The notes under the pieces are model-generated. The model searched no databases and was not told where the DNA came from. It saw only the letters and a list, made by a program, of their open reading frames with translations. Below, in pieces: positions 1,111-57,571 of a DNA stretch of 64,000 nt. The stretch is from Buxus sempervirens (taxonomy: Eukaryota; Streptophyta; Magnoliopsida; Buxales; Buxaceae), in the NCBI GenBank assembly GCA_947561395.2, contig OX387190.1, forward strand, positions 27,398,858 to 27,462,857, written 5' to 3'. The position numbers and the translations under genes are program-made. Numbering within the stretch: position 1 is the stretch's first letter; each line of letters starts with the position of its first letter.

Positions 1111-1249
1111 TATCCGGTATTAAATACCGGATAAGGATATGTCTTATTGTATCTGGTAACAATGACCGGATACCGCATAATCCTTTGTATCCGGTAATAT
1201 GTACCGGATATGAAGATAATTGTTTTTAACCGGCCTAAGTTACCGGTTA
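1111..1249. promoter_or_regulatory. Dyad array, E0 leader (4 sites)
   Basis: Four 23-bp dyads start at 1111, 1150, 1188 and 1227 (steps 39, 38, 39). The form is TATCCGG-N9-CCGGATA, which contains the core CCG-N11-CGG. The second site has one mismatch (CTGG) and the fourth has altered flanks (TAA/TTA). The same sites and 39-bp period occur in the E0 LTR. A role as protein-binding sites is inferred from the fixed geometry. Confidence 0.8.
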
Positions 1250-2585
1250 ATGCCGAAATGACCATTTTTGATTCATTTTTTCACCAGATTAGGTTTTTTT
1301 TCATTCCCACTTGATGTTCACCTTAATTTGACCTCCAAAACTTGCCCCAAATTGGGCTTGGACATCATACTTGCAGAATCCCCAAATTCATGAAAAGAAA
1401 ATGGCTTTACCTTGCCACCTTGTATTACCTTCAATATGGCATTCATAGTGTACCTTGGCCTGTAGAACATGCAAACGGCCTTCCTACATTTACACCCAAT
1501 TCCCCAAATGCAATTGTGTACTTTTAGCTGAAAACGTGTTCCTCCACCTTCAAGCGTATAGTTTTTGGGTTTTGGCTTAATTGGCAACTTAGAATTCAAG
1601 TCTAGTGATGCCCGGAATCGAATCACAGATCCCATTGTCATCACATCATTGACTCAAATTCTAAGGTAAATGTTTTCACTTTCGCTTTCCGAAGTCACGA
1701 CCTCGGTGCGCCAAGCTACACACATTCATGGTTCAACTTCCTATAGGTAAAAAGGTAGGTTGTGCAAAGTGTTTGTTGTGTTCAAGTGCAATTTAAAATT
1801 GTGGTAACATTCACAACGTCCCAGCCCCTTGCCACTCTTTTTCGTAGCCATGCATTCAATTTCAAGCCAAGGCACATATGACAATATAATGAAGCTAAAT
1901 ACAAGCAAGCAAGAGCCAAAGCAACCAAATATGCACAAAAATATTACATGCCCAAAAAGTGGTATAAAAACATGTTACTTGGTGCAAACAACAATTAAAC
2001 CATGGAAGCATGCTTGAAACCCAAAAGCATCTCCTAAAATTCCAGATTTTCATGCTCTTTTTTCATGCTCAAAGTGTAGGCCTATAAATTTAGCACTACT
2101 TGACATGATACCAAAAGTGTTTCAATGAGGTAAAACATACTTGAAAATGCCCAAAATATGCACTAAATTTTCAGATTTTTTTTCCTTGCTCTCATGCTCA
2201 AATCAAGTCCTCCTATACCCCCCCCAAATCAAAGGCATGGCATCATACAAACATTAATCACAAAAAAACTTTATTCATGGCAAACATGCTTGAATGCCCC
2301 AAAATACACACAAGATTTCCAGATTTCAAATATTGTATATTTTTTTTAGCTCATGGCCTTCAAACCCCAAAATAACACATGCTATCACATAATATAGCCA
2401 AGTCATATCACAATATGGGTTTTCTTTTCAACAAAAATCAAGCAACATGCTTATGCCTTTATCCATGTGAATTCTCTAGTCATACAAATCAAATTTGAGA
2501 TTCAAATATACACAAGCAGAGTAATCAAAATAGCAAGCATTCAAAAGAAAAAGCATGAATATACACAAAATGGCTTAAATCCACA
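1250..2585 (-). other. E0 leader, PBS-proximal part
   Basis: Non-coding leader. It shares blocks with the E2 leader (about 11.9-13.4 kb), the E1 leader (26.4-27.7 kb plus 49.1-49.3 kb) and the E3 leader (46.1-47.2 kb). Shared blocks include a start resembling TTGCCCCAAATTGGGC and a block around TTTCACTTTCGCTTTCCGAAG. No gene is seen. Confidence 0.75.
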
Positions 2586-2605
2586 AGTCCCCAGCAGAGT
2601 CGCCA
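2586..2605 (-). other. Primer-binding site of E0
   Basis: On the minus strand this reads TGGCGACTCTGCTGGGGACT, two bases downstream of the LTR end. The same PBS occurs next to the E2, E3 and (with one mismatch) E1 LTRs. Tat/Ogre-type elements are reported to prime with a tRNA-Arg; the tRNA identity was not checked here. Confidence 0.85.
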
Positions 2606-2607
2606 GT

Positions 2608-4895
2608 TGTGAGACATGGAAAAATCACCGGAATGATCATCCCTCCGTCAACACACGTGCTCAACGCAAAATTGGGAGAGTCGCCACCATTCATTATTTT
2701 GGGGTGTAAATGGGCACCAAAATCATAAAAAAAAGCAAAAAAGAGACAAAAGAAACATTCTCGGATAAAAATAACCCTACTTGAAAATCAAATCCAGAGA
2801 TGGGTAAGGGGATTAGATTATGAACGGGGGAAGGTATTAGGCACCCCCATTCATCCACACGAAGTGGTAGCCAAGTGTATGTTCATGCAAAAATAAGAAA
2901 GCTTGCTAAAATCATAGAAAACCTTGAAAAAGGACCAATGTATGATATTTTCACATGAAGATCTAAATGGATTCTAGATCCTCTCTTATGTCAACATCAT
3001 TTCTGGAATATCACAAAAAGATGTAAATCAAAGCACAAGTTATTCAAAAACCAAGTTGAATCAAATCCGAGAAATTTGGTAAAAAGTAATGCCATTTGTC
3101 TTGAAATCATTCAAATCCAATTTTAAATTGAACCAAACCAAATCCATTTGAAAGATCTTAGTAAATAAGGGACTCATGCAAAATTTCAAGTCAATCCGGT
3201 TGAAATCCTAGGAGTTACGCTCCTTTAAGGTTGCTGTTGCGGATAATCAAAAAGTGATAAGTGGGCAACTTTGGGAAATTGCATAGAAAAATCCACGAAA
3301 ATTGGTGTGATTGAAGTCTGAATGACCATCTTTCAAAAGAAACTAGCCTCATACAAAAATCCCTTCGGATGTGCCTTGGGTGGTCTCCCGAACAGGCCCC
3401 GAAGATCACAGATTTACCCAGAAAAATGCCATTGAGCAGTTCTGAGTAAATCGGCTACCAATAATTCAAATGGAGTCAAAAAATTATGAAACCAACTGGA
3501 TTTGAAAATAGACTCATAAAGGAGTGCCCAAAAACAAAAATCACTCGAATCGGACTTAAAACAAACACATGGCGCTCCGTCGAAGTGACAAGTTCTGTAT
3601 TTGAACCTGAACTGTCCAATAAACTTCGACAGAGAGGTGTCAAAAATCCGTTCGATAGAAATTTATGAAATTTGGTGGACGTAAACTAGACAGCCTCACC
3701 TTTCCCATGGTTCTAGAATTGCTCCAAAATTCATCCGGGCGATGAAGTTATGAGCGTCCGAAGTAAGGGTACAGGTGCTGTCCAGTCAGGCCTTTTTTGA
3801 GTAAAACCAATGCAAAAATGTGACAAAGTGTGTGCCATTCGTGCAAGATGAACACAAAACCTTTAAAAATCATCCAAAGACATTTCATAATTGATTGAGG
3901 CCATTTATTTAAGATTTATCACAATGAATGTAATGAATCCCCAAATGTGAGCCTATCCCGCCAAAATAGTGATATGTATGTGCAAGTGTGAAAAACCATA
4001 CAAGATCAATAGCATGCATACATATTCATCAAAATGAGGTTCTAAAATAGCCTAGGGTTCCGTTCCATTATCGTTTCCCTCTGTTCTCTCTCCCCGTTAA
4101 ACACGGTTCTTCAAGATAATCAAGGGTACTTTGAATATGAAACGGTTTACAATCAATCAAAAGGCTTTATGCTACATAGGTTCTAGTACTAGGATCAATC
4201 CCCGGTCTCGTTTCTCCTAGATCTCGCCTCCACGTTTTACGGCTAGGGGGAGTCTCGAGATACTTTGAGCCGGGGAAGGGTTTTCACACACAAAGAAGGC
4301 CTTATTCTACAGAAAGGTAGAAGAATAGATCTAGATCTAGGAATGTAAAGACAGAAAATAAAAGAAAAGTTTGAGGCTTACCTGGGTTCTGGATGCGATC
4401 CCGCAGCGGTTTTCTTCTTCTCTTGGAGTTCTTCTTGGCGAGAATTCAAAACAAGAGTTAATGGCCATTTGCTTGAGGAGGAGCCTCCTATTTATAGGCA
4501 AAGGCTAGGGTTAGGGTTGGTGATAATGGTAGACACAACATAATGTCTATAGCCCACCAACCTTAACCCTAAGGCTATTTCCGAGATTTCCCCTCATTTA
4601 ATGAAGGATACGATGGTAAAAGTGAAAAACTCTCGGAAAACCCTAATTTTGAGCAAAACTTGCGTATCCGGTCTGAGTTGCCGGATACACAAGGGCCTTA
4701 AGGTATCCGGTATATAATACCGGATACACTAAGCACTGCCTGTATCCGGTATTTGTCACCGGATACACAGAGGACCACTTGTATCCGGCCTGAGTTGCCG
4801 GATACAGGTAAAAATTCATTTTCTTCAATTTCTGTGCTGGCTTTCAAGGAGATAATGATTTTTGATGATTATTTGTGCAATTTGGGGTGTCTACA
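2608..4895 (-). mobile_element. E0 5' LTR (2288 bp)
   Basis: A complete LTR. On the minus strand it runs from TGTAGACACCCC to CATGTCTCACA and is followed by the PBS, so it is the 5' LTR of an element extending left of the window. A TATA box (TATAAATAGG on the minus strand) lies near 4490. The right neighbour is a PMD exon of E2, so E0 inserted into that gene. The flank is ACTTC; its partner is off the window. It belongs to the same LTR family as the plus-strand solo LTR at 55266-57571. Confidence 0.92.
4665..4804. promoter_or_regulatory. Dyad array in E0 LTR (4 sites, 39-bp period)
   Basis: Four 23-bp TATCCGG-N9-CCGGATA dyads start at 4665, 4704, 4743 and 4782, exactly 39 bp apart. The N9 spacers differ, so the arms and spacing are conserved while the spacer is free. 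The array is 91-230 bp inside the LTR start and roughly 170 bp upstream of the TATA box, an enhancer-like place. Confidence 0.85.
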
Positions 4896-7091: not shown

Positions 7092-7211
7092 AAACCGCAC
7101 ATACAGGGCGGTTGTGCAAGAACCGCACTTGTCCCGTTGTTTTTAAACTCCGCGGAAATGCAACCGCGCATTGGGTGCGGTTCAGGCACAACCATTCTGA
7201 GTATGCGGTTT
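7092..7211. promoter_or_regulatory. Dyad array upstream of E2 DUF7745-like gene (4 sites)
   Basis: Sites of 23 bp, form AAACCGC-N9-GCGGTTG, start at 7092, 7120, 7161 and 7189 (steps 28, 41, 28). The second has a degenerate right arm and the fourth a degenerate left arm. The core CCG-N11-CGG is shared with the other arrays, and the AA/TT flanks match the E1 and E2 LTRs. The array ends 130 bp before the start codon, the same relative place as in E3. Confidence 0.8.
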
Positions 7212-7340
7212 TTGCTCTTTTGTAATTTTAAAGCCGCGAATCGCGGGCAGAACGTCACTTTGACGTATTGCTTAGGTCAGAAACCCCATTTTCGGAGATT
7301 TTCTCTCTCCTAGCTGCATTTAATCCACTTTTGACCATTA

Positions 7341-8965
7341 ATGGCCTCTGATTCAGCTTCTGCACCTTCTTCATCCTTTGTACCTGAAACATCAGCACCT
7401 AGACCAACCATTAGATCCAAAGCTCCAAATCTGACAAGGTATGCCATTGTAGATGCCTCGTATGAGAAATGGGTTGACTCAATGACCCATCAAGATAAAA
7501 TAGATTGGGACTTTACCAATCTAGGCCATATCCTCTCACTCCCAAAAGTTTCCCTAAAATGGGAAATCATAGAGGCATTGATCGGGCATTGGGAACCCCA
7601 ATTAAACCTTTTCAGGTTTGGGGAGAAGGAGATGACCCCTACAGTCGAGGAGGTTGAAACCATCCTCAATACTAGGTTCTCAAAAAAAATAGTCAACCCA
7701 CCTCTCAAACCAAGCTTTAAAAAGGAAGCCTCTACTTTTTTAGGAATTGGCAAGAAAGAGCTAGGGGAAGCTGACGCATTATTGACCCTATCAAAGTCAT
7801 TTTTGACTGAAAAGTTATTGAATAGCTCGAACCAGTCAGCCCGGTTCAATGCTTTGACCTTGATAGTGGTCAATCAACTTTTATTCCCCCGAGATGATAG
7901 CGAGGTTGATTTAGGGAGCGCGAAAGGCTTGCCCCTATGATCCTGGCTGAAATATACCAGGCCTTGACTGACTGTTATCATCGGAAGAAGAAAAGTTTCC
8001 TCGCCTGCGCCCCTATCCTCCAGGTAAAATCTGAACCTCTTTCTTGAATTACTGTTTTCATTGTAAAATTGAAATTTTCTAACTTGAAAATGCTTCCTTT
8101 TTCTTTGCAGCTCTGGCTTTTGGATCATCTGTCCCAGATGGAGGAGATAGACAGGCACTTTGCCTGGAACATGGATGTTCTCACTTTGATGAACAACCGG
8201 GGGTGTCCTTCTATCCCAGGAGGCAAGAGGGGGTGGTTTGTCTTCTTGGGGATGCTTCAGGATGACCAGGTGAGATGGCCTGGTACTTATCAGCCTTCTA
8301 TCGAGACGGTGATCAGCTTCCCCGATCGGAATTTAGCCGTGCTTATAGGCTTGAGGTCTGCCTTGCTCTATTTGCCTTTGAGAGTCATCCGGCAGTTCAG
8401 AGAGGAGGCTCAAGGGATTCTGGTACCTCAGGGCTACGAGGAGTTCATTGGTCCTCTCACACCGGCCACCATGGGGCTGTGCTATCGCCTGGTGAAGGAA
8501 TGGTCTCATGCCTGCTTCTTGAGTGGTCCTGTCTTCTCCAAATCGCATGAGAAGGACTACCTCTTCTGGATTAGGGAGCAGGCGCAGAGTTGTGCTTCTA
8601 TACCAGTGGATCCTCCTGTTGTCCCATGTCCTACCTACGAGGATCTCCTGGAGACTGAGAGGGCTTCTCATAGGCGGCTCCAGCATATATGGATAGAGGA
8701 AGCCCGGGCTATGAGACTGGAGAAGGAAGACTTGGAGAGACGGCTCGCAGAGCAGATACGGGCCCGTCGCTTCGAGGTTAGAGCCGCATGGCATAGGCAT
8801 GATGAGACCATGGCTAGGCTCAGAGATATGAGGACCAGACAGACCCTCTCAGATGATGTCATTTCTTTCCTCAGCGACCCGGATGCAGAGGGGGCTGAGA
8901 GGCTAGTCGCGGTTCAGGCAGCTCGGATCAGAGAGCTCAAGGAGAGGCTAGGGGATAGAGATTAG
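7341..8965 (+). pseudogene. DUF7745-like gene carried by E2 (frameshifted)
   Basis: Two exons. Exon 1 (7341-8023) opens with ATG and a Ser/Pro-rich N-terminus, then the block around GHILSLPK, EALIGHW and TPTVEEVETIL. Exon 2 (8111-8965) begins LWLLDHLSQ and ends in a coiled coil of about 100 residues. Exon 2 is fully open and close to E3. Compared with E3, 28 bp are missing near 7911, which shifts the frame in exon 1; the correct frame resumes as ERERLAPMILAEIYQ. The family assignment rests on motif resemblance to plant DUF7745 proteins, often found with retroelements; function unknown. The introns survive because the gene is antisense to the genomic RNA. Confidence 0.75.
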
Positions 8966-10038
8966 CCCCTTTATTGTATATTTTTTTTCTTTTTTTTTTT
9001 TTACACTCTTGTACAAAGAGAAACTCCATTAGCGGAAGGATAAAGAATACAAAATAGATTTTTATACTATTGGCCTCAGAACTTTCATGTGCTTGTAAAA
9101 ACTGACAGTTTAATGAAAAGTCATTGATTTCTCATCATCGGCCAAAATATAATTTTCTTTTTTTTGTGTGTGTTTTTGTTGTAAATTGGTCCATGATGCT
9201 TTAATCACATATAGTTTGATGAATTAAAGTAAGTTGGGCAAAAAGGGTATTTTAAATAATAAGGAAGAATCCATTCCGTCAACCTTTGAACCTTTAGACT
9301 CATCCCCAAATTTCATTCCCATCTCCAGGGATCATGCCAGTGCTTACTGGTTTAGACCTATGCTGAAAATATGCTCAACTCAAATTTGCTGCTCAAAATC
9401 GTGCATTCAGACCGGTTTAGCCAAAATCGCCTTTGATATGCGGTTGCTTGACCCCTCTGCCAAAACCGTATGAACAATGCGGTTTGGGCCAATCTGTACC
9501 CATAGTGTGGTTTTTGACCTTTTTTTTCTGTTTCTTTTTTCTTTTGTTCTTCTTCTTCTTGTGCCTTTTCCTGGCCAATATTGCCCCTAGTGCCTGTTAC
9601 GGTTTTCACTAGGGCCGGCTCATTTGCTCCGTCATTGCCAATCCAACACCGTGAGTTGAAGGAATATACCGAGATCACCAAGGGCTTGATCCATAGGACG
9701 AAATGAAGGCTAGGTTAAGTTTATGAAAGAAAGTTATTATAGGCTCAAAATTTTGATATTTTGAAATAGGACAACTGGGCTTACAGTCATGATGGATATG
9801 ACCCCAATTCCCAACATTTGCCCTCTTTTCCTCCTTTTGTATTTGGCTTTCATTTGCCACCTTATTTTTCTTCTTTATTTTTGCCCCTATTGACCTTGCC
9901 CCAGTTGCAACTGTAAGCCCTAGTTTGGGTTCTAAAAAAAAAAAAAAACGAACAGGCTCAACTTGGTTAGGCTAGGGATTTTAAAATTTTTAAAGGATAA
10001 AGAAAAATGGCCTCGGATCATTTCTTAGTGGTATTCCT
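8966..10038. other. E2 spacer between convergent DUF7745-like gene and pol
   Basis: About 1 kb between convergent 3' ends. It is homologous to 36.44-37.42 kb (E3) and partly to 17.1-17.75 kb. It holds several T/C tracts (polypurine in the retroelement RNA) and one dyad array listed separately. No gene is seen. Confidence 0.65.
9424..9513. promoter_or_regulatory. Extra dyad array in E2, between the antisense gene and pol (3 sites)
   Basis: Three 23-bp sites start at 9424, 9463 and 9491 (steps 39 and 28); only the middle one has perfect CCG/CGG arms, the others being TCG and CTG variants. E3 has no visible array at the corresponding place, so this is an additional or decayed site cluster. Confidence 0.65.
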
Positions 10039-15428: not shown

Positions 15429-15696
15429 AAACCGTATACTCAGTGCGGTTTCTACAGAACCGTCTTATATGTGCGGTTTCTATGCAAATTCATCTCAACC
15501 GCACATACAGGGCGGTTCAATTCAGTTACGCTCGTCATGATTGCTGTCGACGTGTCCCAACGGCCGAAGCTTCTGGAAGCCACGTGGCAACCCGCGCGAT
15601 AAGCATGAATATCAACCGTGCTGTGTATAGGGTTGCAACCGTACATACAGGGCGGTTGAGACCAAATTCTCAAAAACCGCACATATACTACGGTCA
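15429..15696. promoter_or_regulatory. Dyad arrays in E2 LTR (6 sites)
   Basis: Dyads of 23 bp start at 15429, 15457, 15496, then 15613, 15636 and 15674. Core CCG-N11-CGG, flanks AA/TT. Steps in the first group are 28 and 39. The 15613 site has a degenerate right arm and the last lacks the TT flank. The E1 LTR has the same six sites at matching positions. Confidence 0.8.
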
Positions 15697-15738: not shown

Positions 15739-15822
15739 GCTTATTTACATGTAATATCGTTTAAGTAAATGTCCTCGTATTTTTTAATATCCATTTACTT
15801 CAGATATTACATGTAAATAAGC
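15739..15822. repeat. Perfect hairpin, MITE-like
   Basis: Left arm 15739-15758 pairs exactly with 15803-15822 (20 bp), and an inner 9-bp arm 15763-15771 pairs with 15792-15800. The loop is 20 nt. It sits at the boundary between E2-type LTR sequence and the 448-bp repeat. No TSD is clear. Confidence 0.75.
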
Positions 15823-15824
15823 AA

Positions 15825-16271
15825 ACACCCCCCCATTTGAATCCATTAAAAATATTTCCAAACCCAAATTCCAAGTGAATAAAAAGTCAACTTTCCAGTT
15901 CTAGGCTAAATTCCGATTTTTCGGGTCCGGTAAAAAGATTCAACCTGTTGATACAAAGGTATTTGTCAAGATTTAAAATCTCAAAAAATTCATTTATGCA
16001 ATAACATTGCTAAAAACCTAATTACCGGGAAAAATAATCTTCAAATCTTGCTTTAAAAAATATTTCATTTTCTGGGGTCAAAAGTCAACAAAATTCAACC
16101 CGAAAAAGTTTGACTTTGCATAAAATATTGAATTCGGGCCTTTTCCTTTGCGGCCTTGGATTCAAATGGGTTAAGGATCTCAAACCCAATGCTAAGAATT
16201 CAAAATTCCAATAAAATATTTCTCTCCTTCAAGACTTATCAAAAATCGTGCAATTTTGGGGTGTCTACAAC
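15825..16271 (-). repeat. 448-bp direct repeat, left copy
   Basis: Starts ACACCCCCCCATTTG and ends GGGGTGTCTACAAC; by eye identical to 18949-19395. It is the outer end of a Tat LTR. The perfect identity indicates recent duplication or conversion. Confidence 0.85.
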
Positions 16272-18948: not shown

Positions 18949-19395
18949 ACACCCCCCCATTTGAATCCATTAAAAATATTTCCAAACCCAAATTCCAAGT
19001 GAATAAAAAGTCAACTTTCCAGTTCTAGGCTAAATTCCGATTTTTCGGGTCCGGTAAAAAGATTCAACCTGTTGATACAAAGGTATTTGTCAAGATTTAA
19101 AATCTCAAAAAATTCATTTATGCAATAACATTGCTAAAAACCTAATTACCGGGAAAAATAATCTTCAAATCTTGCTTTAAAAAATATTTCATTTTCTGGG
19201 GTCAAAAGTCAACAAAATTCAACCCGAAAAAGTTTGACTTTGCATAAAATATTGAATTCGGGCCTTTTCCTTTGCGGCCTTGGATTCAAATGGGTTAAGG
19301 ATCTCAAACCCAATGCTAAGAATTCAAAATTCCAATAAAATATTTCTCTCCTTCAAGACTTATCAAAAATCGTGCAATTTTGGGGTGTCTACAAC
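18949..19395 (-). repeat. 448-bp direct repeat, right copy
   Basis: By eye identical to 15825-16271. It ends TCTACA at 19393 and abuts E1 pol sequence (ACAGGTGG), so it is the right border of the insertion that cut E1. Confidence 0.85.
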
Positions 19396-44000: not shown

Positions 44001-44643
44001 CTAGGTCCTTCCATCTTTTGATCTTTCCATGGTCCAGAGTGGCGAACCATCTTAATGCGGTTCCAGTCAGGCTCCTTTGGAAAAGTTGGATCAAGATACC
44101 CTCATCCTGCCCGAACTGGCATAGGGCACCGCAATACAACTTTAGGTGGCTCATGGGGCAACCAGTGCCATCATATTTGTCCAAGTCTGGGCACTTAAAC
44201 TTAGCCGGCAGGTTAACATTGGGGTATAGGCACAGGTCTTCAAAATTGGTCCCTCCAAAGCTGTTTACCCCTTTGACTTCCCTTAGTTCATCTTGGATCA
44301 TTTCTAGCTTATGCATGAACTTTCTTTCAACCTCTTCCCTTATCCTTTCCTTTTCCTTAGCCTTGTTTGACTCAGCTGTCTCATCCCTGGTCAGTATAGG
44401 TTCAGGGGTGTGTTCATAGACGGGTTCAGGAGTTGGTTGCACTGGAGGTGGAATGTTGACTGGGGGTGGAGGTGCAGGGTTGGATGTGGATGCCTGGTTC
44501 TGGGCTTGCATTTGTTGGGCCTGCACTTGTTGGGCCTGTACTGACAGTATGTTCTCTAGCATTCGGGCTAGTCCTGCCACTTGTTCTTTGAGTAGAACAA
44601 CATCTGGATGAGGAGCATCAACTTCATCTTCAATGGGATTCAT
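41008..44643 (-). CDS. E3 gag-protease polyprotein
   Basis: 1211 codons from ATG at 44643. The N-terminus is Gln/Pro-rich, the gag core lies at about residues 150-300 (LTGTALRWFATLDHG, GREETVRQYAKRWRE), a CX2H...C knuckle-like motif (CDYHMGAPGHPTDKC) near 449-463, and a long Pro-rich linker to about 690. The aspartic-protease-like LIDNGLALN is near 830; E1 has DNGSALN, so the Ser-to-Leu change is specific to E3. A G-patch-like segment (HPGKGLG...AGLGSKP) lies near 1000-1036. The frame ends TAG at 41008, just past the A9 run where pol continues in -1. Confidence 0.92.
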   Translation of the reverse strand: MNPIEDEVDAPHPDVVLLKEQVAGLARMLENILSVQAQQVQAQQMQAQNQASTSNPAPPPPVNIPPPVQPTPEPVYEHTPEPILTRDETAESNKAKEKERIREEVERKFMHKLEMIQDELREVKGVNSFGGTNFEDLCLYPNVNLPAKFKCPDLDKYDGTGCPMSHLKLYCGALCQFGQDEGILIQLFQRSLTGTALRWFATLDHGKIKRWKDLADAFLAQYRFNSEIMPDRYDVMRMSKGREETVRQYAKRWRETASQVRPPMLEQEMISTFISTLGQPFYSHLVGQTTTNFSALVQVADRIEDGIISGKIIDHSAMVSQQDPNLKKGGGIKKNGNKKEGEVNMVQPPSGPNKPIQINIPAHFPTPPASSSQAPMRVNVPAAPSDQKRVFTKEEKDAYFAARRNRVFTPIPMTPSQLLPTLLQGGYITLRESNPNASKGRNFDPSTTCDYHMGAPGHPTDKCWPLKHAIQDLLDQNTLSFNTGAPNPPRTDIGQNPLPQHHGAGPSNVIGVISSDKITFDPSQLIAPIGTTVKVYFDRRSEGKEINMISKGNDSAAKNISSSLDRVSSLMAQMNIAKPPLVINYNPSTFTLPIQSKPPLVINCDPFSASVTSANPQPKQLPPLVANVPITQTSIAKSKLPPLVVNVPKPSYSESAVPWNYSEAFTTTCPAAESKEEVNLMMRSGKCLGVEEKQKETEKEKEEEKNKGKAKVGEEAPQVTNSEAADLMKIIKKSEFNVIEQLNKVPAQISILGLLLNYEKHRDSLLRILQGAHVPKNIEPDQLGRMVGQILSHNVITFSETEISPAGYHHVDPLHIAVLSNGCMIARVLIDNGLALNVCPLVTFVKLNLERNKIKQNGRIIRAFDSSKTHSLGEDELPVTIGPYIFNITFEVMDIPAAFNLLLGRPWIHTARAIPSTLHQRVKYIKGQKVITVLAENLVPPMWSPDVPCINMEMTADKMTFHSFQFEAVNYIPGGYQEKEGKLTCAEKMVKNVLEKYHFHPGKGLGVNLQGRIEPVQVKKMVHRAGLGSKPRKWRKQGQIETMKFPHIRETFPKLSHMIQLSPPEDQSKPPYYNINPFQKPKPSTVQSYVPPPLPQASGGPGPQAEQEQDFSVDVGAFFAMTEGNQEKVAEELPFIDWAAVEVPSGTGPTKETGDATHPVLVISDANHELEEQACIPAPDSFILNNWEETPLTFEAAFVWQTDMASKKKLH
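41017..41025 (-). promoter_or_regulatory. A9 run at the gag/pol frame change
   Basis: On the minus strand the gag frame reads TCC AAA AAA AAA CTC CAT TAG; pol reads the -1 frame through CAA AAA AAA ACT. This may be a slippery site or a one-base insertion. E1 has A8 here and needs no frame change. Confidence 0.6.
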
Positions 44644-45909
44644 GGCTCGAGCTCTTGATCTGGTTACAGGAGCTATGATTGCAAGTGTATTAGTACCTGG
44701 CGAAATAAAAAGAAAATATCAGTGCCAATTTAATCTCATTCACATGCGTAGGGATGCCTATGTGCAAGCTGGGTGAACACGAGTTTGGATTTTTTTTTTT
44801 GAATTGTTGGAATATTCTAGGGCTTCCAACAGATCCCACAAAAGAGAGAAAGATCTGAAATTCAAAGGCTTTCAGAGGCCCGGGGGTTTTTGAAAAAGGT
44901 CTGAAATTCAAAGGCTTTCAGAGGCCCAGGGATATTTTGGGAAAAGGTTTGAAATTCAGAGGCTTTCAGAGGCCCGGGATTTTTGATGAAAGTCTGAAAT
45001 TCAAAGGCTTTCAGAGGCCCAGGGATGTTTTGATGAAAGTCTGAAATTCAAAGGCTTTCAGAGGCCTAGGGATATTTTGAAAAAAGTCTGAAATTCAAAG
45101 GCTTTCAGAGGCCCAAAAGTTCTGAAATTCAAAGGCTTTCAGAGGCCCAGAAGTTCTGAAATTCAAAGGCTTTCAGAGGCCCAAAAGATAAAGGTCTGAA
45201 ATTCAAAGGCTTTCAGAGGCCCAAAAGGAAAAGGTCTGAAATTCAAGGGCTTTCAGAGGCCCAGAAGTTCTGAAATTCAAAGGCTTTCAGAGGCCCAAAA
45301 GTTCTGAAATTCAAAGGCTTTCAGAGGCCCAAAAGAAAATGGTCTGAAATTCAAAGGCTTTCAGAGGCCCAAAAGGAAAAGGACTGAAATTCAAAGGCTT
45401 TCAGAGGCCCAAAAGTTCTGAAATTCAAAGGCTTTCAGAGGCCCAAAAGAAAAAGGTCTAAAATTCAAAGGCTTTCAGAGGCCCAAAAGTTCTGAAATTC
45501 AAAGGCTTTCAGAGGCCCAGGATTTTTGAAAAAATCTGAAATTCAAAGGCTTTCAGAGGCCCAGGAAATTTTTGAGAAAAATTCTGAAATTCAAAGGCTT
45601 TCAGAGGCCCGAGGATTTTTTGAAAAATCTGAAATTCAAAGGCTTTCAGAGGCCCAAGAGTTTTTTGGAGAAAGAAAGTCTGAAATTCAAAGGCTTTCAG
45701 AGGCCCGAGGATTTTTTGAAAATTCTGAAATTCAAAGGCTTTCAGAAGCCCAAGGAACCTTTCTCTCACATTTGTTTTTGTTTTATTTTGTTTATTTTGT
45801 TTTTTTTTTTGGAGCATTTTATTGAAACTTGTTTCCCTTTATCATTATTTAAAGGTTAAAGGAAGATTTTAGTGGGAAAAACTGATTAAAGTTGAATATT
45901 CCGAGAAAA
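44644..45909 (-). repeat. E3 leader hairpin repeats (about 22 units)
   Basis: From about 44857 to 45755 a unit of 34-50 bp is repeated about 22 times. Each unit has TCTGAAA-N9-TTTCAGA followed by GGCCC and a variable A-rich or T-rich linker. A single TTGGAATATTCTAGGGC-TTCCAA unit of the E0/E1 type precedes it at 44808. Open frames with LKAFEFQ repeats are products of the repeat, not genes. Confidence 0.85.
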
Positions 45910-46038
45910 CCGTATACTTACCACGGTCCGGTCTTGCCCGTGTTCATATTACGAGCAAGCCGTGACCGTATGCAAAACACGGGCGAGCCTAGCCCGTATA
46001 ACCAATACGGGCAAGCCCAGCCCGTGTACTAAATACGG
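45910..46038. promoter_or_regulatory. Dyad array, E3 leader (5 sites, exact 28-bp period)
   Basis: CCG-N11-CGG cores with CCG at 45910, 45938, 45966, 45994 and 46022, exactly 28 bp apart; only the second CGG is imperfect (CGA). Because 14 bp separates CCG and CGG starts, half sites alternate in orientation every 14 bp. Flanks are GC/GC as in the E3 LTR. Confidence 0.88.
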
Positions 46039-47238: not shown

Positions 47239-49052
47239 TGTGACACATGGGAAAAAAATCAATTTAATGATTTCCTCAATCATCACACGGGATTAAATAA
47301 AATAAAGAGTCGCCACCATTCAATTTAGGTGTGAATGGACACCAAAATATTAAATAAGCACAAAAGGCAATTTTAGGGTAAAAATAACCCTCCTAAAAAA
47401 ACCAACCACAGATGGGTAAGGGGATTAAGTTATGAACAGGGGAAGGTGTTAGGCACCCCTATGCATCCACACAAGGTGGTTGCCAGGTATTGGTTCATGT
47501 TAAAATTAAGGAAAAAGCTTGCTATAAAAATCAGGAAAATCACAAAAAAGGCAAAAATATATGGTTTTTTTCATATGAATATTCTGATTGATCCAGAACT
47601 ATCAAACATGATCATACCATTCCTAGGGTTTCATGATCAAAATAAAATTGAGATAAAATCAAATAAAATCAATTTAAAGTGAAAAATCCAAAAATCTGGC
47701 TTCAAGCTAAATTCTAGAAATCTAGAAAAATATGATTTTTATAAAATATTTCAAAATTGAACTTGAATAGTCCAGGATATAGATAAAGCCCAAATTTCAC
47801 ATTAAATCAGAAAATAAAAACCAAAAATACCCACGTTGATGAAAAACACCAAAAAGGGAGAACTTAGACCGTAGGGTCTTATCTCAATAATGAAAAACAA
47901 TTTAAAAACCATCTCATGAAACCCTAGAATTTACTTTCAGGCTGCTGGATCCAGATCTATCATATTGATCATGATAAGTCCAAGATCTTAGCCTAAGATC
48001 ACAAAAATCACGAAAACAGTGCTGTAGGTGCAAATATGTGGAAAATCCAAATTTTGGCAAAAATAGGGATCTCATGCTATAAACATCATAGATTCATGTT
48101 ATTCATTCAGATATATCATAAAAAGCATTAAAACATGATCAGGATATTCAAAACAGCCACATCTCACAAATTAGAGCACATGGGGGTCTACCCTATGGAT
48201 CCACCTGTTCCCCTTTCCCCTAGTTCTCTCTTCACGTTTTACGGCTAGAGAGACTCTTGAGGTACTTAGAGATAGGTTTGGGTACACAAACACAATCAAA
48301 GGCCTTATTCTAGAAATAAAAAAAAGAAAAAAACAGATATGGGGTTCTATTCTAGGGATCCACCTGTTCCCCTTTCCCCTAGTTCTCTCTTCACGTTTTA
48401 CGGCTAGAGAGACCCTTGAGGTACTTAGAGACAAGTTTAGGAATACGAAAAAAGATATGGCCTTATTCTACAGCAATAGAGATGATCCTATTACTTCTAG
48501 AATTGAAGACAGAAAATAAAAAAAGGATAGGGGACTTACCTGGATTGAGCAGGCAGAGCAGCAGGGATTCCTTTCCTTCTCTTGGAGCTTTTGATTCTTC
48601 AAAATTTCGTGGCCTTTAGCTAGAGGAAAGAGCCTCTATTTATAGACACACCCAGGGGCATGGTTGGTCCAGAAGGATATAGCCTGGTCTTTAAGATAGA
48701 GTAAAATACAGAGATAATGCCCATCCATAGCCAACCAAGGTAGCTTTAGCGAATAAAATACTTAATTCGCTCGTTTAAAGATATATTGGACTTCAAATAA
48801 AGCTCGGAAATCGAGAGAAGGACAAAACTCGCACGTGTCTTTAATGCCCATAAATGATTTACGGTCCAACGGAGACCGTATTGTTACTACGGGCGCGCCT
48901 GTCCGTAGATAATTTTCGGGTGCGATGGGCCCGTGAAGGAAATACGGGCAAAGCCTGTTTATTCAATTTTTATGCTTTTTTGACCTGTTTTAAGCTCTAA
49001 TTGCATGTTTTTATTACTTTCTCATTTTGTGGTGCAATTTGGGGTGTCTACA
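47239..49052 (-). repeat. E3 5' LTR
   Basis: Same length as the 3' LTR with about 1.5% mismatches by eye. It carries a dyad array at 48848-48947 (CCG at 48876, 48903 and 48931, plus a CCA-type site at 48848). It ends TGTGACACATGG rather than TGTGAGACATGG. The TSD follows at 49053. Confidence 0.93.
48848..48947. promoter_or_regulatory. Dyad array in E3 5' LTR
   Basis: Three full CCG-N11-CGG sites and one degenerate site, steps 28, 27 and 28. It equals the 3' LTR array and lies about 230 bp upstream of the TATA box in the direction of gag-pol transcription. Confidence 0.82.
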
Positions 49053-49319: not shown

Positions 49320-49321
49320 GT

Positions 49322-51730
49322 TGTGAGACATGGAAATGTCACCTAAGATGACCTCTAGTATCTTCACGCGGGGATCATTAAAAGTAAAGAGTCGCCACCA
49401 TTCAAGTTAAGGTGTGAATGGACACCAAAGGGTTCATAAAAGCCAAATAGAGCCAAGGCAGCTCTAATACAAAGAAAACTCCAAAGATTAGGTAAGGGGA
49501 ACTATTTATGAGCGGGGGAAGGTGTTAGGCACCCCCACTCATCCGTCTAAGACGGTTGCCATATGTTTGCTCATGCTAAGGGTTGTTTGCTAACTAAAAT
49601 CAAGAAAGGAGTGCTTGAAATTAAGCACAATGTGTGTGATTCCTCCATATGAATAATCCAATAGATTTTGGACTCTCTTTATGGACATATCACTTCTAGA
49701 ACTTCATGAGTGAATGAAAATCAAAGTAGAAATGAAGAAAAATCCAGCTAAGGTAAATCTGGAAAAATCAGGTTATGAGAACTTGAAGACTTCGATCAAC
49801 CATAAATCACTCAATTTAAATTCAAATCAAATGAAACCAAAGCCATTTGAAATCTGGTACAGTATAGAATATACAGTAAAAAACTCAGCTCAATCCGATT
49901 TAAAATAAGAGAAAAACACTATGGAAATCCGCTGCTGTAACTCAAAAAAAGCGGCGAGTAAGCATTTTCAAAACCCTATTCGTGGAGTTTGGCTCCATAT
50001 AAATTCATGAAAATTTGCATGGATGAAGTATGTGGTGCCATCTTTTAAATGAAATAAGCCTCACACAAAACTCCATCCAGGTGTGACTTGTGTGTGCGCC
50101 TGAATAGGCCTAGAAGACCACAGATTAGCTCAGGACTATGCCATTGAGCAGCTCTGAGTCAATCGAGCACACAGGCCACAAATCAAATCAAAATCTGTGA
50201 AACTAGTTGGAGATGAAAATAGATTCCTCAAGAAAAACACAGAAACTGAAATCACCCAAAACGGATTAAAATTGAGCGAATGGTGCACCATCAAAGCGGC
50301 AAGTTCAGCAATCTGGGCTGAACTGACTTATAGAATTTGAACTGATGGTGTCAAAAATTGGCTCCATAAAAATGAACGAAAATTTCCAGATACAAAGTAG
50401 GCCATTTCATCTATCACATGTCTTTGGAATCGCTCAAAAATTCATTCGGAGGATGAAGTTATAAGCATTTCAAGACAGGCCACAGATGCTGCCATGTTTT
50501 GAAGATTTTTGAATAAAAGGTGAAAACCAGTGCATGTGGATTCGACCAAAACAATCTTGAAATCAAGAAAATAACTCATGAAGTTCTAAAAATTCATTCT
50601 AGGCCTGGAATCTCAGATTTTCCATATTGAGCATGGAAAATCCAAGATCTAACCTATTCTTGCAAAAACAGTGAAAAGTGTGTGTGAGATGTTGAAAACC
50701 ACATATCTAGGAGAAGATTGGAATCCACTGCTGTTGAAAGCATGGATTCCTGCATCTTATCCAAATACAAATACAAAATAGATCAGATAAGCAACTATGG
50801 GCACAAAAATAACCAACATGCTCTTCATCATATATAGGTTCTAAGCTTAGAGGATCCATCCCATCTTCCTTTTCCCCAGGCTCTCTCTTCACGTTTTACA
50901 GATAGAAAGGATTCCCAGGTACTTTGGAAGAGGTTTGGGGCTACAAAATTCCACCCAAGGCCTTACACTACAGAAAGGTAGAAGTTGGGAGTTGGAAATG
51001 TAAAGAAGAAGCTGGAAATGAAATAGAACTTTACCTTTGATGACTTGAGCACTTGAGGCAGCAATCCAGCAGAGTTTTCCCTCTTCTTGCAAAGCTTCCA
51101 AGCTTTAAATTATCAGCCATTTGCAAGAGGAGGACCCCTCTATTTATAGGCACAACCAAGGGCATAAGAGTCCCAAGGGTATGCAAAAAAACTCTTCTAG
51201 ATTATTCCAATTCTCATTAAAGGCTTGAATTGGAGTAATTTCGCAAGTTTCGGAGGGTGAAATAGGGAGTTCAAGTCCCTGAGAGAGAGGTAATATGTGT
51301 AAATAAGGCTCAGAGATCGAGCCATTTCGCAAATCGCCAAAACAACCAAAATCGCATACACAGTGCGGTTTCCACAGAACCGTCACTTTATGTGCGGTTT
51401 CCATGCAAATTCACCTCAACCGCACATACAAGGTGGTTCCAATTCAGTTACGCTCGTCATGATTGCTGGCGACGTGGCTCAACAGCCAAAGCTTCTAGAA
51501 GCCACGTGGCAGCTCACGCGAGAAGCATGAACATCAATTGTGTTGTGTATGCGGTTGCAACCGTACATATAGGGCGGTTGAGACCAAATTCTCAAAAACT
51601 GTATATTTAGTGCGGTTAGCATCATTCTTGAGTATTTTTGAGTGTTTGACACATGTCAAGGCTCAAATAAAACATTTAAAGTTCTTTTTGACTGTTCTCT
51701 TATATTGAAGTGCAATTTGGGGTGTCTACA
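49322..51730 (-). mobile_element. E1 5' LTR (2409 bp)
   Basis: Bounded by TGTAGACACCCC at the right and CATGTCTCACA at the left. Closely related to the E2 LTR but without the hairpin and 448-bp block. A TATA box lies near 51140. The right flank ACATGGTATCAGAGCC belongs to a short-LTR element, so E1 inserted into that element. Confidence 0.9.
51349..51618. promoter_or_regulatory. Dyad arrays in E1 LTR (6 sites)
   Basis: Sites start at 51349, 51377, 51417, 51535, 51558 and 51596, matching the E2 LTR one for one. Flanks AA/TT. Several have C-to-T or G-to-A changes in the core; the second is 1 bp longer. Confidence 0.78.
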
Positions 51731-52260: not shown

Positions 52261-53267
52261 TAAAACTAAAACCATGCATGGCTGGCCAGATCGATTTATT
52301 ACTATTCGAGGCCAAAAACATTAGCAAAATTTCTAAGCTATCACAGTTATTTTGATTCAAAGCTCCATTTGACACAGCCCTTCGTATCAAAGCCTTCCAA
52401 TTTTTAAGAATCTATACCAAACGATCCCCAAAATAACCTTTAATTATGGAAGGTCATTAACTCACAAAACCACCATTAGCATAACTTAATTTACGAACAG
52501 CCCATTGCCAAACATATACTTCTTTTTTTTTTCCCCAAAAATAACCTTTTAACGTCATGTCATTTTTCAAAAATAACTTTGTCTTCACATGTCCTAACCT
52601 TTTTATCTACATATAATGTGCATGTGCTGCTCGTGCACCTCGCTGGTTAGAAATTATCTAAAGGCGGCCTCTCTTTGTGCTTGAAGTTCCTCGATCTTAT
52701 TCCTCTTAGCTAAAAATTATCAAAATTAAGAAGAAGATCACCTCATTGTGGGTGTGATCTTCTTCTCAATATATATATAATATTCAAAGAGATTTTTGTT
52801 GGAGATTGAGGATGTCTAAAGGATGTTTGGGGTGGGGGGAGATGACCTGATTAAGACAGAGTTAGCTGCCCTATATATTTGTTAATGACAAAATTATCTT
52901 AGAACGATTCATATATCCTATAAATGGTTAATTATGAACTGAACTGAATAGGTTGTTTTAATATAAAATCAAAACTGAATTGAAAACGATTAATACAAAC
53001 CCAAAACTGATCTTAATAGGTTCGATTGGTTCAGTTTGTCAATTTTAACTAATAAACCAAACCATCCCTAGTTGGTCGTCTGACTTAAACAGGTCTATAC
53101 ATGTAATCATTTGGGTTTGGTTCAACCGAAGCGTTGCCATTCCTAATTATCCGAGCCATTAAAAAACATATTCATGATGTTCTATGAACACTGAATTTCA
53201 TACCATTAATTTTAAACATGAAATAAGCTGTTGACAAACACGAGAGCCTCCTTGTCTAGGTGTGTGG
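52261..53267. other. Intergenic, nothing recognised
   Basis: AT-rich sequence without convincing coding frames or known repeat ends. It ends in GTGTGTGG, the left TSD of the hAT element. Confidence 0.6.
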
Positions 53268-54413
53268 CAGGGGCGGCTCAAAGGGGTAGGCCACTAAGGC
53301 CACCGCCTAAGGCCCCCCAACTATGAAGGCCCCATTTTTTAAACTCTTTTTTAAATATTTTTTCTTTATTATGTTATTAGGTTTTGTTTTTTTAAACCTT
53401 AAAGCCCCCAACTATTAGGTTTTATTTTTTAACGTTTTTTTGTTTTTTAATATTTTTTTTAAGCGTTAAGGGCCTCACTATTATTAACGTTAAGAGAGAT
53501 TTAGCGCAGCTTGTGTCCCAAAAAAAAAAAGAGCAACTCGTGGAATACTCTCTCTCTCTTTCGTTTTTTAAAAAGGGAAAAGGGGATGAATCTTTGGTAT
53601 GATATATTGTTTGTTGTAAATTCAGTTAATAAGAGTTTACAACTTGAAAATATGCTACTAGATCTTGCTATGGATAAATTAAAGGGATTTATTTCTTATT
53701 TCAAAAATTTTAGAGAAAGTGGTTTTAATTCTGCTTTAGATTTTTCAAAACAAGTTGCACTGGAAATGGAAATAGAACCAACATTCTCTAAAAAGCGTAC
53801 CATTCATAGGAAAAAGCAATTTGATGAAAATGTCGACGAGATTATGAAATTTGTAGAGGAATCTTTCAAAAAGCAATGATATATTTGGGTTTTTATTTGG
53901 TCTTGATAGATTACGTTCTTTTATTGATTGTGATTTAGAAAAAAAATGTCTTGATCTTGAAAATTTTCTTAAGCATGACATGCATTCTAATATTGATGGT
54001 TTGGATTTGTTTTTGGAATTAAAGGTTTTAAAAGTTGTAAAAAACAGAAATTAATACTCCAATTGAAATACTTAATCTAATAAAAGAACTCGATTGTTTT
54101 CCCAATTGTTTAATTGTATATAGAATATTACTTACCATACTTGTTACAGTTGCATCTGAAGAAAGAAGTTTTTCAAAACTAAAGATTATAAAAAATTATT
54201 TACGAACAACTATGTTTCAAGATAGATTAAATAGTTTAGCAATTTTATTTATTGAAAATGATTTATTGGCTAAACTTGAATACAAAAATTTAATTAGTAA
54301 TTTTGCATCTAAAAAGGCAAGAAATAAATTTATGGTTTAATATTAATTTTTTAATTAAAAGGCCTTATTTTATGACCTTGCCTAAGGCCCCCAAAAAGTT
54401 TGAGCCGCCCCTG
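53268..54413 (+). mobile_element. hAT element, copy A (1146 bp, internally deleted)
   Basis: 15-bp terminal inverted repeats CAGGGGCGGCTCAAA / TTTGAGCCGCCCCTG and a perfect 8-bp TSD GTGTGTGG (53260-53267 and 54414-54421). Both are hallmarks of the hAT superfamily. It is too short for a full transposase. Confidence 0.93.
53586..54340 (+). pseudogene. hAT transposase remnant, copy A
   Basis: A 97-codon frame (53586-53879) resembles the middle of plant ZMYM1-like hAT transposases (YDILFVVNSVNKSLQ, EMEIEPTFSKKR, RKKQFDEN). Further on, past stops, a hAT dimerisation-like stretch is readable near 54140-54340 (TVASEERSFSKLK, LNSLAILFIENDL). The DDE catalytic part is missing. Confidence 0.75.
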
Positions 54414-54421
54414 GTGTGTGG

Positions 54422-55265
54422 CTGGCAGTTCCTATAACAGGGGAATCCCTCTTGAAGTGAGACGCGATTGTGATGAATGTGCTAACAGGTTTCAAAATTT
54501 TCCACGAATACGTTTTGATAGAAAATTTTGCCAGACCAGAACTGTCCATGCCCATATTGATGGCTCCTTTTTTGGAAAATTTCCCCATCATGTCACATAT
54601 TGATGGCTCATTCGTCGTTTTCCTGGGACAGGTACCAGACGTTATCTCACCGCGTAAGTTTTGGACCACTTGCAAAATATAAATGATACAAAAACTTCTC
54701 CAAAAAGTCGTTTTGTGTGCCGTCAGTTGTACGAGTGTCCTACCAATACGAGGAAGTTATTCCGAACCTTGTACGCCATTAGTTAAGCAACCTTTTAGCG
54801 TTTTTGTTCACTTCATAAGTAGCCGGACGTTGAGAACAGTGGTTCAAACTCTACGGTAGAGAATATTTTTGGGATTTAAAAAATTACTGGGTTTAGGGTT
54901 GGTATATATACATTTGTGTAACTCTAATTGAATTTTTCTTAGTGGAAATTTTGCCGTACACAATTGACGTAGACATATTGCTGAACCACTTAAACTTTGC
55001 GTGTTCTTGTTCTTGTTCTTTATTTTTTTTTTACTGTTCACGTTGCATGAGACTCAACATTGGATCAAAATCTAAGAGAGGACCGAGTATTAGCTGGAGT
55101 ATTGGCCGTTTGATCTCCTCTAACCAACTATGATGGACATATATGTACACGTTTGCATGCGAAGCTGATGACGTAAACAGATACACGTGCTTTATTGAAT
55201 CAACAGATCTTATATGGAGTGAAACTGATATGCTTACCCTATAGGGTTTGAAATCATCTTCTACT
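54422..55265. other. Intergenic between hAT copy A and the solo LTR
   Basis: No gene or repeat recognised apart from the TSD CTACT at its right end (55261-55265). Confidence 0.6.
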
Positions 55266-57571
55266 TGTAGACACCCCAAATTGCACAAACAATCATAAAA
55301 AATCATTATCTCCTTGAAAGCCAGCACAGAAACTGAAGAAAATGAATTTTTACCTGTATCCGGTAACTCAGGCCGGATACAAGCAGGCCTTTTCTTATCC
55401 GGTAACAAGTACCGGATACAAGCAGTGCTTAGTGTATCCGGTACCATGTACCGGGTACCTTAAGGCCCATGTGTATCCGGTCTGATATACCGGATACATT
55501 AAGTTTGCTCAAAATTAGGGTTTTCCGAGAGCTTTTCACTTTTACCATCATATCCCTCATTAAATGAGTGGAAATCGCGGAAATAGCCTTAGGGTTAAGG
55601 TTGGTGGGCTATAGACCTTATGTTGTGTCTACCATTCTCACCAACCCTAACCCTAGCCTTTGCCTATAAATAGGAGACTCCTCCTCAAGCAAATGGCACT
55701 GAACTCTTGTTTTGAATTCTCGCAAAGAAGAACTCCAAGAGAAGAAGAAAACCGCTGTGGAATCGCCTCCAGAACTCAGGTAAGCCTCAACTTTTCTTTT
55801 TATTTTCTGTCTTTACATTCCTAGATCTAGATCTCTTCTTCTACCTTTCTGTAGTGTAAAGCCTTGTTTGTATGTGTGGAAATCCTTCCCCGGCTCAAAG
55901 TATCTCAAGACTCCCCTAGCCGTAAAACGTGAAGGCGGATCTAGGAGAAACGAGACTGGGGATTGACCCTAGTGCTAGAACCCATGTAGCATAAGGCCTT
56001 TTTGATTGACTGTAAACCGTTCCATATTCAAAGTACCCTTGATTATCTTGAAGAACCGTGTTTAACGGGGAGAGAGAACAGAGGGAAACGATAATGGAAC
56101 GGAACCCTAGGCTGTCTTAGAACCCTATTTGGATGAATATGTATGCATGCTATTGATCTTGTTTGGTTTTTTTTTACACTTGCACATACATATCATTATT
56201 TTGGCGGGATAGGCTCATATTTGGGGTTTATTGCATTTATTGTGATAAATCTCAAATAAATGGCCTCAATCAATTCTGGAATGTCTTTTGGATGATTTTT
56301 AAAGTATTTGTGTTCATCTTACACGAATCTCACACACTTTATAAATTTTCGGATTTGATTTTCTTCAAAAGTGGCCTAACTGGACAGCACCTGTACCCTT
56401 ACTTCGGATGCTCATAACTTCATCGTCCGGATGAATTTTGGAGCGATTCCAGAACCAGGGGAAAGGTGAGGCTGTCTAGTTTATGTCCACCAAATTTCAC
56501 AAATTTCTATTTAGCGGATTTTTGACACCTCTCTGTCGAAGTTGAGTGGACGGTTCAGGTTCAAATACAGAACTTGTCACTTCGACGGAGCGCCATGTGT
56601 TCGATTTAAGTCCGATTCAAATGATTTTTGTTTCTATGCACTCCTTTATGAGTCTATTTTCAAATCCAGTTGGTTTTATAATTTTTGGATTCCATTTGAA
56701 TTATTGGTAGCCGATTTACTCAGAACTGTTCATTTGTACTTTTCTGGGTAAATCTGTGATCTTCGGGGCCTGTTCGGGAGACCACCCAAGGCACATCCGA
56801 AGGGATTTTTGTATGAGGCTAGTTTCTGTTGAAAGATGGCCATACAAACTTCAATCACACCAAATTTCGTGGACTTTTATGTAGTGGATGTTTCTAGACA
56901 ATTTTCCAAAGTTGCCCACTTACCACTTTTAAAACTCCCCAGCAGCAACTTCAAAGGAGCATAACTCCTAGATTTTTCATCGGAATGAAGTGAAATTTTG
57001 CATGAGACTCTTATTTACCCTAATCTTTCAAATGGATTTGGTTTGGTTCAATTTAAAATTGGATTTGAATGATTTCAAGGCAAATGGCATACTTTTTACC
57101 GAATTTTCCGGATTTGATTTAACTTGGTTTTGAGCAACTTGAGCTTTGATTTCCATCTTTTGAGATATTCCAGAAATGATATTGACATGAGAGAGGATCT
57201 AGAATCCATTTAGATCTTCATGTGGAAATATCATACATTGGTCTTTTTTTCAAGGTTTTCTATGATTTTAGCAAGCTTTCTTATTTTTGCATGAACGTAC
57301 ACTTGGCTACCATTTCGTGTGGATGAATGGGGGTGCCTAACACCTTCCCCCGTTCATAATCTAATCCCCTTACCCATCTCTGGATTTAATTTTTAAGTAG
57401 GGTTATTTTTACCCTAGAATTGGCATTTTTGCACTTTTTGATGATTTTTAAATATTTTGGTGTCCATTCTCACCCCAAAATCATGAATGGTGGCGACTCT
57501 CCCATTTTTATTTCGAGTCCCGTGTGTTGACGGAGGGATGATCACACCGGTGATTTTTCCCATGTCTCACA
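55266..57571 (+). mobile_element. Solo Tat LTR (2306 bp)
   Basis: Runs from TGTAGACACCCC to CATGTCTCACA on the plus strand, flanked by the 5-bp TSD CTACT (55261-55265 and 57572-57576). It is the same family as the E0 LTR, read in the opposite orientation. A TATA box (CCTATAAATAGG) lies near 55665. No PBS or PPT adjoins it, as expected after recombination between two LTRs. Confidence 0.93.
55357..55496. promoter_or_regulatory. Dyad array in the solo LTR (4 sites, 39-bp period)
   Basis: TATCCGG-N9-CCGGATA dyads start at 55357, 55396, 55435 and 55474, exactly 39 bp apart; the third has CCGGGTA. The spacers differ from those in E0, but arms, spacing and period are the same. Confidence 0.87.

Follow-up and report, generated by a model that had tools for sequence, protein, structure and literature searches.

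The window analysed here, a stretch of 64,000 nucleotides from the genome of Buxus sempervirens (contig OX387190.1, positions 27,398,858 to 27,462,857 of the forward strand), contains several long terminal repeat (LTR) retrotransposons of the Tat lineage, among them element E, which lies on the minus strand between positions 27714 and 49052 and was inserted into element F with a target duplication of CCAAA. These elements carry arrays of a dyad composed of CCG, eleven bases and CGG (CCG-N11-CGG), and the sequence data make it about an even proposition that the arrays are binding sites of a symmetric dimeric regulator at the promoters of Ogre-type Tat elements, with a PMD protein of the elements themselves as the leading candidate binder. 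The geometry of the arms, the unpaired centre, the spacing of the sites with respect to each other, to the LTR start and to many TATA boxes, the half-site type of each element and the promoter-proximal placement were read directly from the DNA.

The window holds 46 exact copies of CCG-N11-CGG, whereas 100 dinucleotide shuffles, performed locally in blocks of 500 bases, contained 2.3 copies on average (standard deviation 1.6, maximum 7). Each of the other spacers from N4 to N19 was represented by 0-8 copies (2-8 for N8 to N14 except N11), and the second-highest spacer between N0 and N30 was N24 with 11 copies. A comparison of all 64 trinucleotide dyads at N4 to N25 yielded the highest ratio in the window for the CCG dyad with N11. 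The reverse arm order was also raised, with 16 copies of CGG-N11-CCG and 17 copies of CGG-N22-CCG, as anticipated for linkers of about 11 and about 22 bp between neighbouring sites. A first-pass annotation had counted more than 50 copies in 13 arrays. Sites were indeed present at all 13 places, a few bases from the expected starts, and the number is reached by adding 14 one-mismatch sites, counted in any register and nine of them in step with a neighbour, to 41 exact sites, but not by exact sites alone; the remaining five exact copies are located outside the 13 arrays.

The preference for the N11 spacer extends to the B. sempervirens assembly (676.5 Mb in 247 contigs). In a sample taken independently of the pattern, consisting of 15 preset 10-kb stretches (150 kb), N11 occurred in 46 copies compared with 3-20 copies for each other spacer from N0 to N30. 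Genome-wide, pairs of dyads 8-24 bp apart numbered 60,552 with N11 and 219 with N10, and a dyad preceding TATAAA by 8-38 bp was detected 11,095 times with N11 (5,600+5,495), 606 times with N10 (313+293) and 431 times with N12 (210+221). Reversed patterns gave 2,227 hits for the N11 pair and 5,287 for the N10 pair, and 2,455 (1,201+1,254), 3,987 (2,014+1,973) and 2,325 (1,171+1,154) hits for the TATAAA combination with N11, N10 and N12, respectively. Since the arms of these controls (GGC/GCC) are devoid of CG, they represent a loose yardstick for CG-bearing arms, and the comparisons with the N10 and N12 spacers were relied on instead. The expected restriction of the enrichment to N11 was accordingly confirmed against shuffles and other spacers, in the window, in the 150-kb sample, in the genomic pairs and in the TATAAA patterns.

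The anatomy of the sites was deduced from the window and additional loci of the assembly. Eight of 15 loci chosen by the pattern were used for the analyses of symmetry, array similarity, array size and covariation, after overlapping copies (L002, L004, L007, L008, L013, L015) and a GC-rich chance match (L009) had been dropped, whereas the loci L016-L030 were taken without matching to the pattern. Across 35 arrays with 98 distinct sites, mirror pairing exceeded the expectation from position -6 to position -1 (68 versus 34 expected at -1) and, inside the arms, at +1 (76 versus 31) and +2 (66 versus 34). At positions +3 to +5 it was at or below expectation (27 versus 26, 33 versus 43 and 22 versus 26), and the central seven bases of the sites were without symmetry. 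Since the symmetry ends at +2, the half-site can be approximated as R-N-CCG-N-N. Three half-site types predominate in the window, GTAT-CCGG, AA-CCG and GC-CCGTA, with one type per element, although individual sites deviate from the type of their array and the geometry alone is common to all arrays. In a set of 32 arrays, the base at -1 agreed in 0.69 of the comparisons within and 0.33 between arrays, and that at +1 in 0.79 and 0.31, respectively. The central 7-mers of neighbouring sites, by comparison, were 39% identical within and 33% between arrays (66 neighbour pairs), and linkers were 45-52% identical in the same array and 36-38% otherwise. This slight remaining similarity would allow for a certain amount of duplication.

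The sites are placed in step. In the window and the 150-kb sample, and with both E LTRs counted, all 49 of 49 exact site-to-site distances between 17 and 60 bp were 27, 28, 38, 39, 55 or 56 bp, and 18 of 30 arrays consist of four sites. Moreover, the tetranucleotides TCAG and CTGA often cap the terminal sites at a fixed offset and point into the array: TCAG was found at 10 of 30 first sites and one of 30 last sites, CTGA at one of 30 first and 11 of 30 last sites, and neither at any of 46 inner sites (Fisher test, 3e-7). The genome contains 15,334 occurrences of the inward-pointing cap order compared with 2,570 of the opposite one. Because the caps mark terminal sites, the arrays tend toward defined ends, to which shared descent of the arrays could contribute. 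The earlier statement that the spacers vary freely therefore needs qualification, as 23 of 60 terminal sites contain a cap.

With respect to the promoter, the combination of the LTR start TGTAGACACCCC and a dyad was matched 3,365+3,381 times genome-wide, with no match in the backward control. Among the 100 matches listed, the dyad was 93-95 bp from the LTR start in 57, 103-107 bp in 41 and elsewhere in two. The gap between a dyad and TATAAA was 13-17 bp in 80, near 26 bp in four and 36-37 bp in eight of the 100 matches listed; the last group consists of second dyads 23 bp upstream that share the same TATA box, and it was not counted toward helical spacing. One of the eight pairs with this 23-bp spacing, which was not seen in the arrays of the window, is located at G000 C1:5893357-5893415; in these pairs the nearer dyad precedes TATAAA by 13-14 bp. 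The alternatives 28 and 39 bp between sites, and 94 and 105 bp from the LTR start, differ by 10-11 bp, which would correspond to about one turn of DNA, as a row of proteins on one face of the helix needs. The fixed arms, the free centre without internal pairing, the helical spacing and the promoter-proximal placement support the previous interpretation of the dyad as the signature of a symmetric dimer.

The arrays of element E are composed mainly of GC-CCGTA sites. The two LTRs on the minus strand (3' LTR, 27714-29527; 5' LTR, 47239-49052) are 98.3% identical and contain in U3 an array of four sites, one of them mismatched, at 29322-29421 (27-28 bp spacing, 106 bp inside the terminus) and at 48848-48947 (105 bp inside the terminus, with a TATA box 204 bp further on). 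One of these two near-identical arrays was dropped from the covariation test, whereas both entered the counts of array sizes and site-to-site distances. An array of five sites at 28-bp spacing, one mismatched, occupies the 5' untranslated region (5'UTR) at 45910-46038. The gag-pol region (37424-44718, minus strand) encodes RNase H, an additional RNase H and integrase in this order; the pol frame at 37424-41059 contains RT at 233-393, RT_RNaseH at 482-586, RVT_3 at 649-759 and rve at 926-1023. The additional RNase H between RNase H and integrase complies with the order of reverse transcriptase, RNase H, additional RNase H and integrase given for Ogre/Retand elements in PMC6317226. According to the same source, PMD-bearing extra open reading frames (ORFs) are present in 57% of Ogre elements, and element E likewise carries extra PMD ORFs in antisense orientation between pol and the 3' LTR. 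A G-patch domain (2.9e-6) was additionally detected in the gag-side frame at 41011-44718 on the minus strand.

Both antisense genes of element E, whose products match PMD/DUF7745 in Pfam, are preceded by an array. Four sites at 29880-29979, followed by a CT-rich region, are located upstream of the ORF1 gene (31250-34127, plus strand), which comprises a PMD exon (31491-32357; PF10536, 4.6e-16), a coiled-coil piece (33168-33428), an acidic piece (33444-33932; 40 D/E and 3 K/R in 163 residues) and a basic tail extending to 34127; its introns were deduced from reading-frame breaks and GT..AG boundaries. Five sites at 34349-34476 (27-28 bp spacing, one mismatched) precede the ORF2 gene (34690-36440, plus strand), with a TATA box immediately downstream (34501-34508, plus strand, TATAAA starting 27 bp past the array). 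ORF2 specifies a DUF7745/PMD protein (PF24924, 2.8e-21) with a strong heptad pattern in its C-terminal coiled coil, and its frame is broken near the start at a position where the homologue of element D is open. Purifying selection on ORF2 was indicated by ratios of nonsynonymous to synonymous substitution rates (dN/dS) of 0.08 for E versus L021, 0.06 for E versus L019 and 0.12 for the C-terminal half versus L023, with saturated dS for E versus D and D versus L021. Between E and L021, dN of ORF1 (0.56, with saturated dS) was about four times that of ORF2 (0.13), a sequence difference that fits a specificity determinant and would also fit weaker constraint. Among the best-scoring matches listed from 4,306 ORF1 candidates, 108 of 124 lacked an internal stop. 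PMD frames, many of them 575-590 amino acids long, were also observed in pairs about 3.4 kb apart at G000 C14:24506346-24510840 and other places, and one such pair (L032) has a U3 array beside it.

The same geometry recurs in the other elements of the window, where the arrays were assigned to elements D, F and G by reading of alignments. D and G are located to the left of E and F, and an inverted LTR of the G kind (element H) begins at 55266. Element G carries GTAT-CCGG arrays of four sites in the 5'UTR (1114-1246, mainly this type, 38-39 bp apart) and in U3 (4668-4801, 39 bp apart); its 5' LTR region (2594-4895, minus strand, the low end being the extent of the alignment with H) contains the U3 array 94 bp inside the terminus and a TATA box 172 bp beyond. 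The LTR region of H (55266-57588, plus strand, the high end being the alignment extent) is 89.5% identical to that of G and contains a corresponding U3 array (55360-55493, four GTAT-CCGG sites, 39 bp apart), likewise 94 bp inside the terminus, with the TATA box 172 bp further on; in element D this distance is 204 bp, as in E. The arrays of D and F are of the AA-CCG type. They are located in D upstream of the antisense DUF7745 gene (array 7095-7208; ORF2 piece 7335-7937, plus strand, DUF7745/PMD, PF24924, 5.2e-12), between ORF2 and the 3' end of pol (9399-9482) and in the LTR (15432-15693, one or more arrays), and in F on the 5'UTR side (26262-26344) and, in decayed form with one exact site, in the LTR (51352-51615, one or more arrays).

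A comparison across loci disclosed a similar placement. Locus L021, which was not chosen by its arrays and belongs to a GTAT-CCGG family, repeats the layout of E, with an array, a TATA box 17 bp on and a DUF7745 gene as well as an array upstream of the PMD gene. Dyads were present upstream of ORF2 in all four places that include the N-terminal portion of this gene (E, D and L021, plus L019, whose single exact dyad lies at the margin of the stretch), and a TATA box follows closely in two of the four. Loci L023 and L028, which contain the C-terminal half of ORF2 only, were excluded from the promoter cases; the array of L023 is inside an LTR. An array upstream of ORF1 was found in E and L021. With respect to 18 LTR-start matches in the loci, an array was present at 94-107 bp in ten and at 576-621 bp in three.

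These data are compatible with a model in which a symmetric DNA-binding regulator, a homo- or heterodimer, would use the arrays as operator platforms, most of which consist of four in-step sites. The platforms would act upstream of the U3 promoter that drives gag-pol and of the internal regions where the two antisense accessory genes start, with an additional platform in the 5'UTR. We infer that the binder is encoded by the element itself. The leading candidate is the ORF1 PMD protein, with its Arg-rich N-terminus, PMD, coiled coil, acidic segment and basic tail, and the DUF7745/PMD coiled-coil protein of ORF2 is perhaps its partner. Such a protein would grip CCG half-sites 14 bp apart, touch its neighbour on a fixed face of the helix and activate or un-silence its own family's promoters in concert, thereby forming a self-activating regulon. 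As the letters around CCG shift by family, each protein might serve its own kind.

Several observations weigh against this model. The large genome-wide counts derive from copies that are related by descent and do not represent independent events, and the 23-bp pairs before TATA break the 27/28/38/39 rule in eight cases among the matches listed. No TATAWA was found after the ORF2 arrays of D and L019 or after the ORF1 arrays of E and L021, no array was present within 1.5 kb at five of the 18 LTR-start matches in the loci, and the twin-PMD element (L031, L032) has no array between its two PMD frames. Sequence comparison of the ORF1 and ORF2 pieces with solved structures gave no match. Regarding the host PMD proteins MAIN and MAIL1, the 'DOWN' motif tied to them is CATGCAGTTT, unlike the CCG dyad, and the contact of their complex with chromatin is given as unknown in PMC9899485. 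Finally, a young element at 15821-19395, with 451-bp LTRs that are 99.8% identical and TGTAGACA-type ends, contains no dyad array and a single lone dyad at 18767, so that the earlier attribution of arrays to all Tat elements was too wide and arrays are not required for every transposition. This element is likely a non-autonomous derivative, as judged from its sequence; an internal piece (17047-17408) shows 69% similarity to the region that separates ORF2 from pol in E.

The same geometry would be expected if a dimeric transcription factor or chromatin protein of the host bound the dyads, which the elements might exploit for tissue expression or the host for marking or repression, in analogy to Su(Hw), which binds clustered sites in the 5'UTR of the gypsy retroelement of Drosophila, albeit at sites that are not N11 dyads. 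Spacer, symmetry, spacing and TATA distance fit this explanation equally well, and arrays occur both in the twin-PMD family and in families with only 47% identity between their ORF1 proteins across most of the PMD exon. However, the half-site letters vary by family and agree more within arrays, a variation that a single factor of fixed specificity does not need and that paralogous host factors could account for, and no plant factor with a CCG-N11-CGG site turned up in searches of the open-licence literature of PubMed Central (PMC). We regard a host binder as a serious possibility that nevertheless falls short of being probable.

The remaining explanations are less plausible. Folding of the arrays as RNA hairpins in the genomic transcript, for packaging, dimerisation or small-RNA production, received some support from the z-scores of -2.6 to -12.6 obtained for six arrays, a fold that the shared half-sites account for. 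No compensatory pairing along the stem was found, either in the symmetry of the sites, which stops at +2 with no more pairing at +3 to +5 than expected, or in the covariation of 19 arrays of four or five sites: complementarity within versus between arrays was 0.41 versus 0.43 for outer spacers (permutation p 0.66), 0.37 versus 0.33 for the inner spacer pair (permutation p 0.18) and 0.44 versus 0.45 for mirrored linkers, which in short-period arrays comprise three bases each. Hairpins would, moreover, not be expected to keep a fixed distance from TATA boxes or LTR starts, and this function is improbable. An origin as mere tandem repeats spread by duplication and copy number, with the dyad as a relic of the founding unit, would be in line with the frequent tandem repeats of Tat-lineage (Retand) elements noted in PMC11963269, the relatedness of the genomic copies and the slightly elevated similarity of adjacent centres and linkers. 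The comparison within and between arrays largely refutes plain duplication; the arms remain exact while centres and linkers drift, and the geometry is repeated with two different periods and three or more half-site sets, at several separate places per element and at preset distances to LTR start and TATA box. Neither of the two refuting outcomes named in the first-pass annotation, equal enrichment at other spacers and plain tandem duplication, was thus borne out. A simple repeat origin is hence very unlikely. Equally remote is a role of the dyads in DNA steps of the life cycle, such as the integration complex or the handling of nuclear cDNA, instead of transcription: most matches listed show one array about 94 or about 105 bp away from the LTR terminus, but arrays also occupy the 5'UTR and, in many copies, precede TATAAA by 13-17 bp.

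Some further observations concern the surroundings of the arrays. Family-specific tandem repeats lie between the 5'UTR array and gag in G (346-810), F (25105-25512) and E (44844-45757). At G000 C1:8464587-8571951, eight consecutive matches of LTR start plus dyad, spaced by 15,318-15,327 bp, form a tandem ladder of LTR-internal units that probably arose from unequal recombination. The inverted H-type LTR is flanked by a 1.15-kb direct repeat pair (53267-54413 and 59230-60395, 97.9% identical), probably the LTRs of another element. Outside plants, a three-dyad pattern matched 57 loci of the viral_contigs collection; 53 of them had a GC content of at least 50% and none resembled the element proteins (1e-3), and the matches were treated as chance.

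Rigid CGG dyads are known from the fungal regulator Gal4, a coiled-coil dimer with a zinc cluster that reads CGG-N11-CCG; the arms are oriented oppositely in the dyad described here, and the zinc cluster is of fungal type. In agreement with the first-pass annotation, no described plant retroelement regulatory system with a CCG-N11-CGG site was found in searches of the open-licence PMC literature. The closest parallel is VANC of the Arabidopsis VANDAL transposons, a transposon-encoded anti-silencing protein with a short family-specific motif in dense noncoding arrays and coevolution of motif and protein, as described in PMC5735166. In the elements studied here, the motif is likewise family-specific and forms arrays within the element's own noncoding DNA, with binding by the element protein being proposed. 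VANDALs are, in contrast, DNA transposons, and the VANC21 motif YAGTATTAY occurs in the same orientation, spread as tandem repeats and without a fixed N11 dyad (PMC5735166). The antisense accessory genes of Retand and Grande (TRP28, gene23) differ in encoding TRP28 rather than PMD/DUF7745, and a dyad operator is not described for them in the available text of PMC11963269 and PMC7264820. The Gypsy PMD-A proteins and the host proteins MAIN and MAIL1 share the Pfam domain of the ORFs studied here; the accessible parts of PMC5418596, PMC7156037 and PMC9899485 describe two Gypsy-only clades, A1 and A2, which perhaps correspond to ORF1 and ORF2, and effects of host PMD members on transposon silencing and promoter activity, but contain no DNA site for PMD-A. 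The function of the PMD domain is termed undetermined in PMC5418596.

It is conceivable, though we would sooner doubt than assert it, that the Gypsy PMD proteins represent an unrecognised class of sequence-specific dimeric DNA-binding regulators, by which each Ogre/Tat family maintains a private self-activating regulon; antisense-encoded PMD proteins would then line up in step on capped four-dyad platforms at the element's promoters, and the half-sites would co-diverge with the protein. If this were true, the host silencing proteins MAIN and MAIL1 would belong to a family with DNA-binding ancestry. The rigid and countable operator, with more than 60,000 site pairs in one genome, provides a direct DNA target for testing PMD proteins. 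Binding by an element protein would mean that plant LTR retrotransposons possess a trans-acting, family-specific control circuit comparable to the VANC circuit of DNA transposons, and would give the long antisense region of Tat elements a role.

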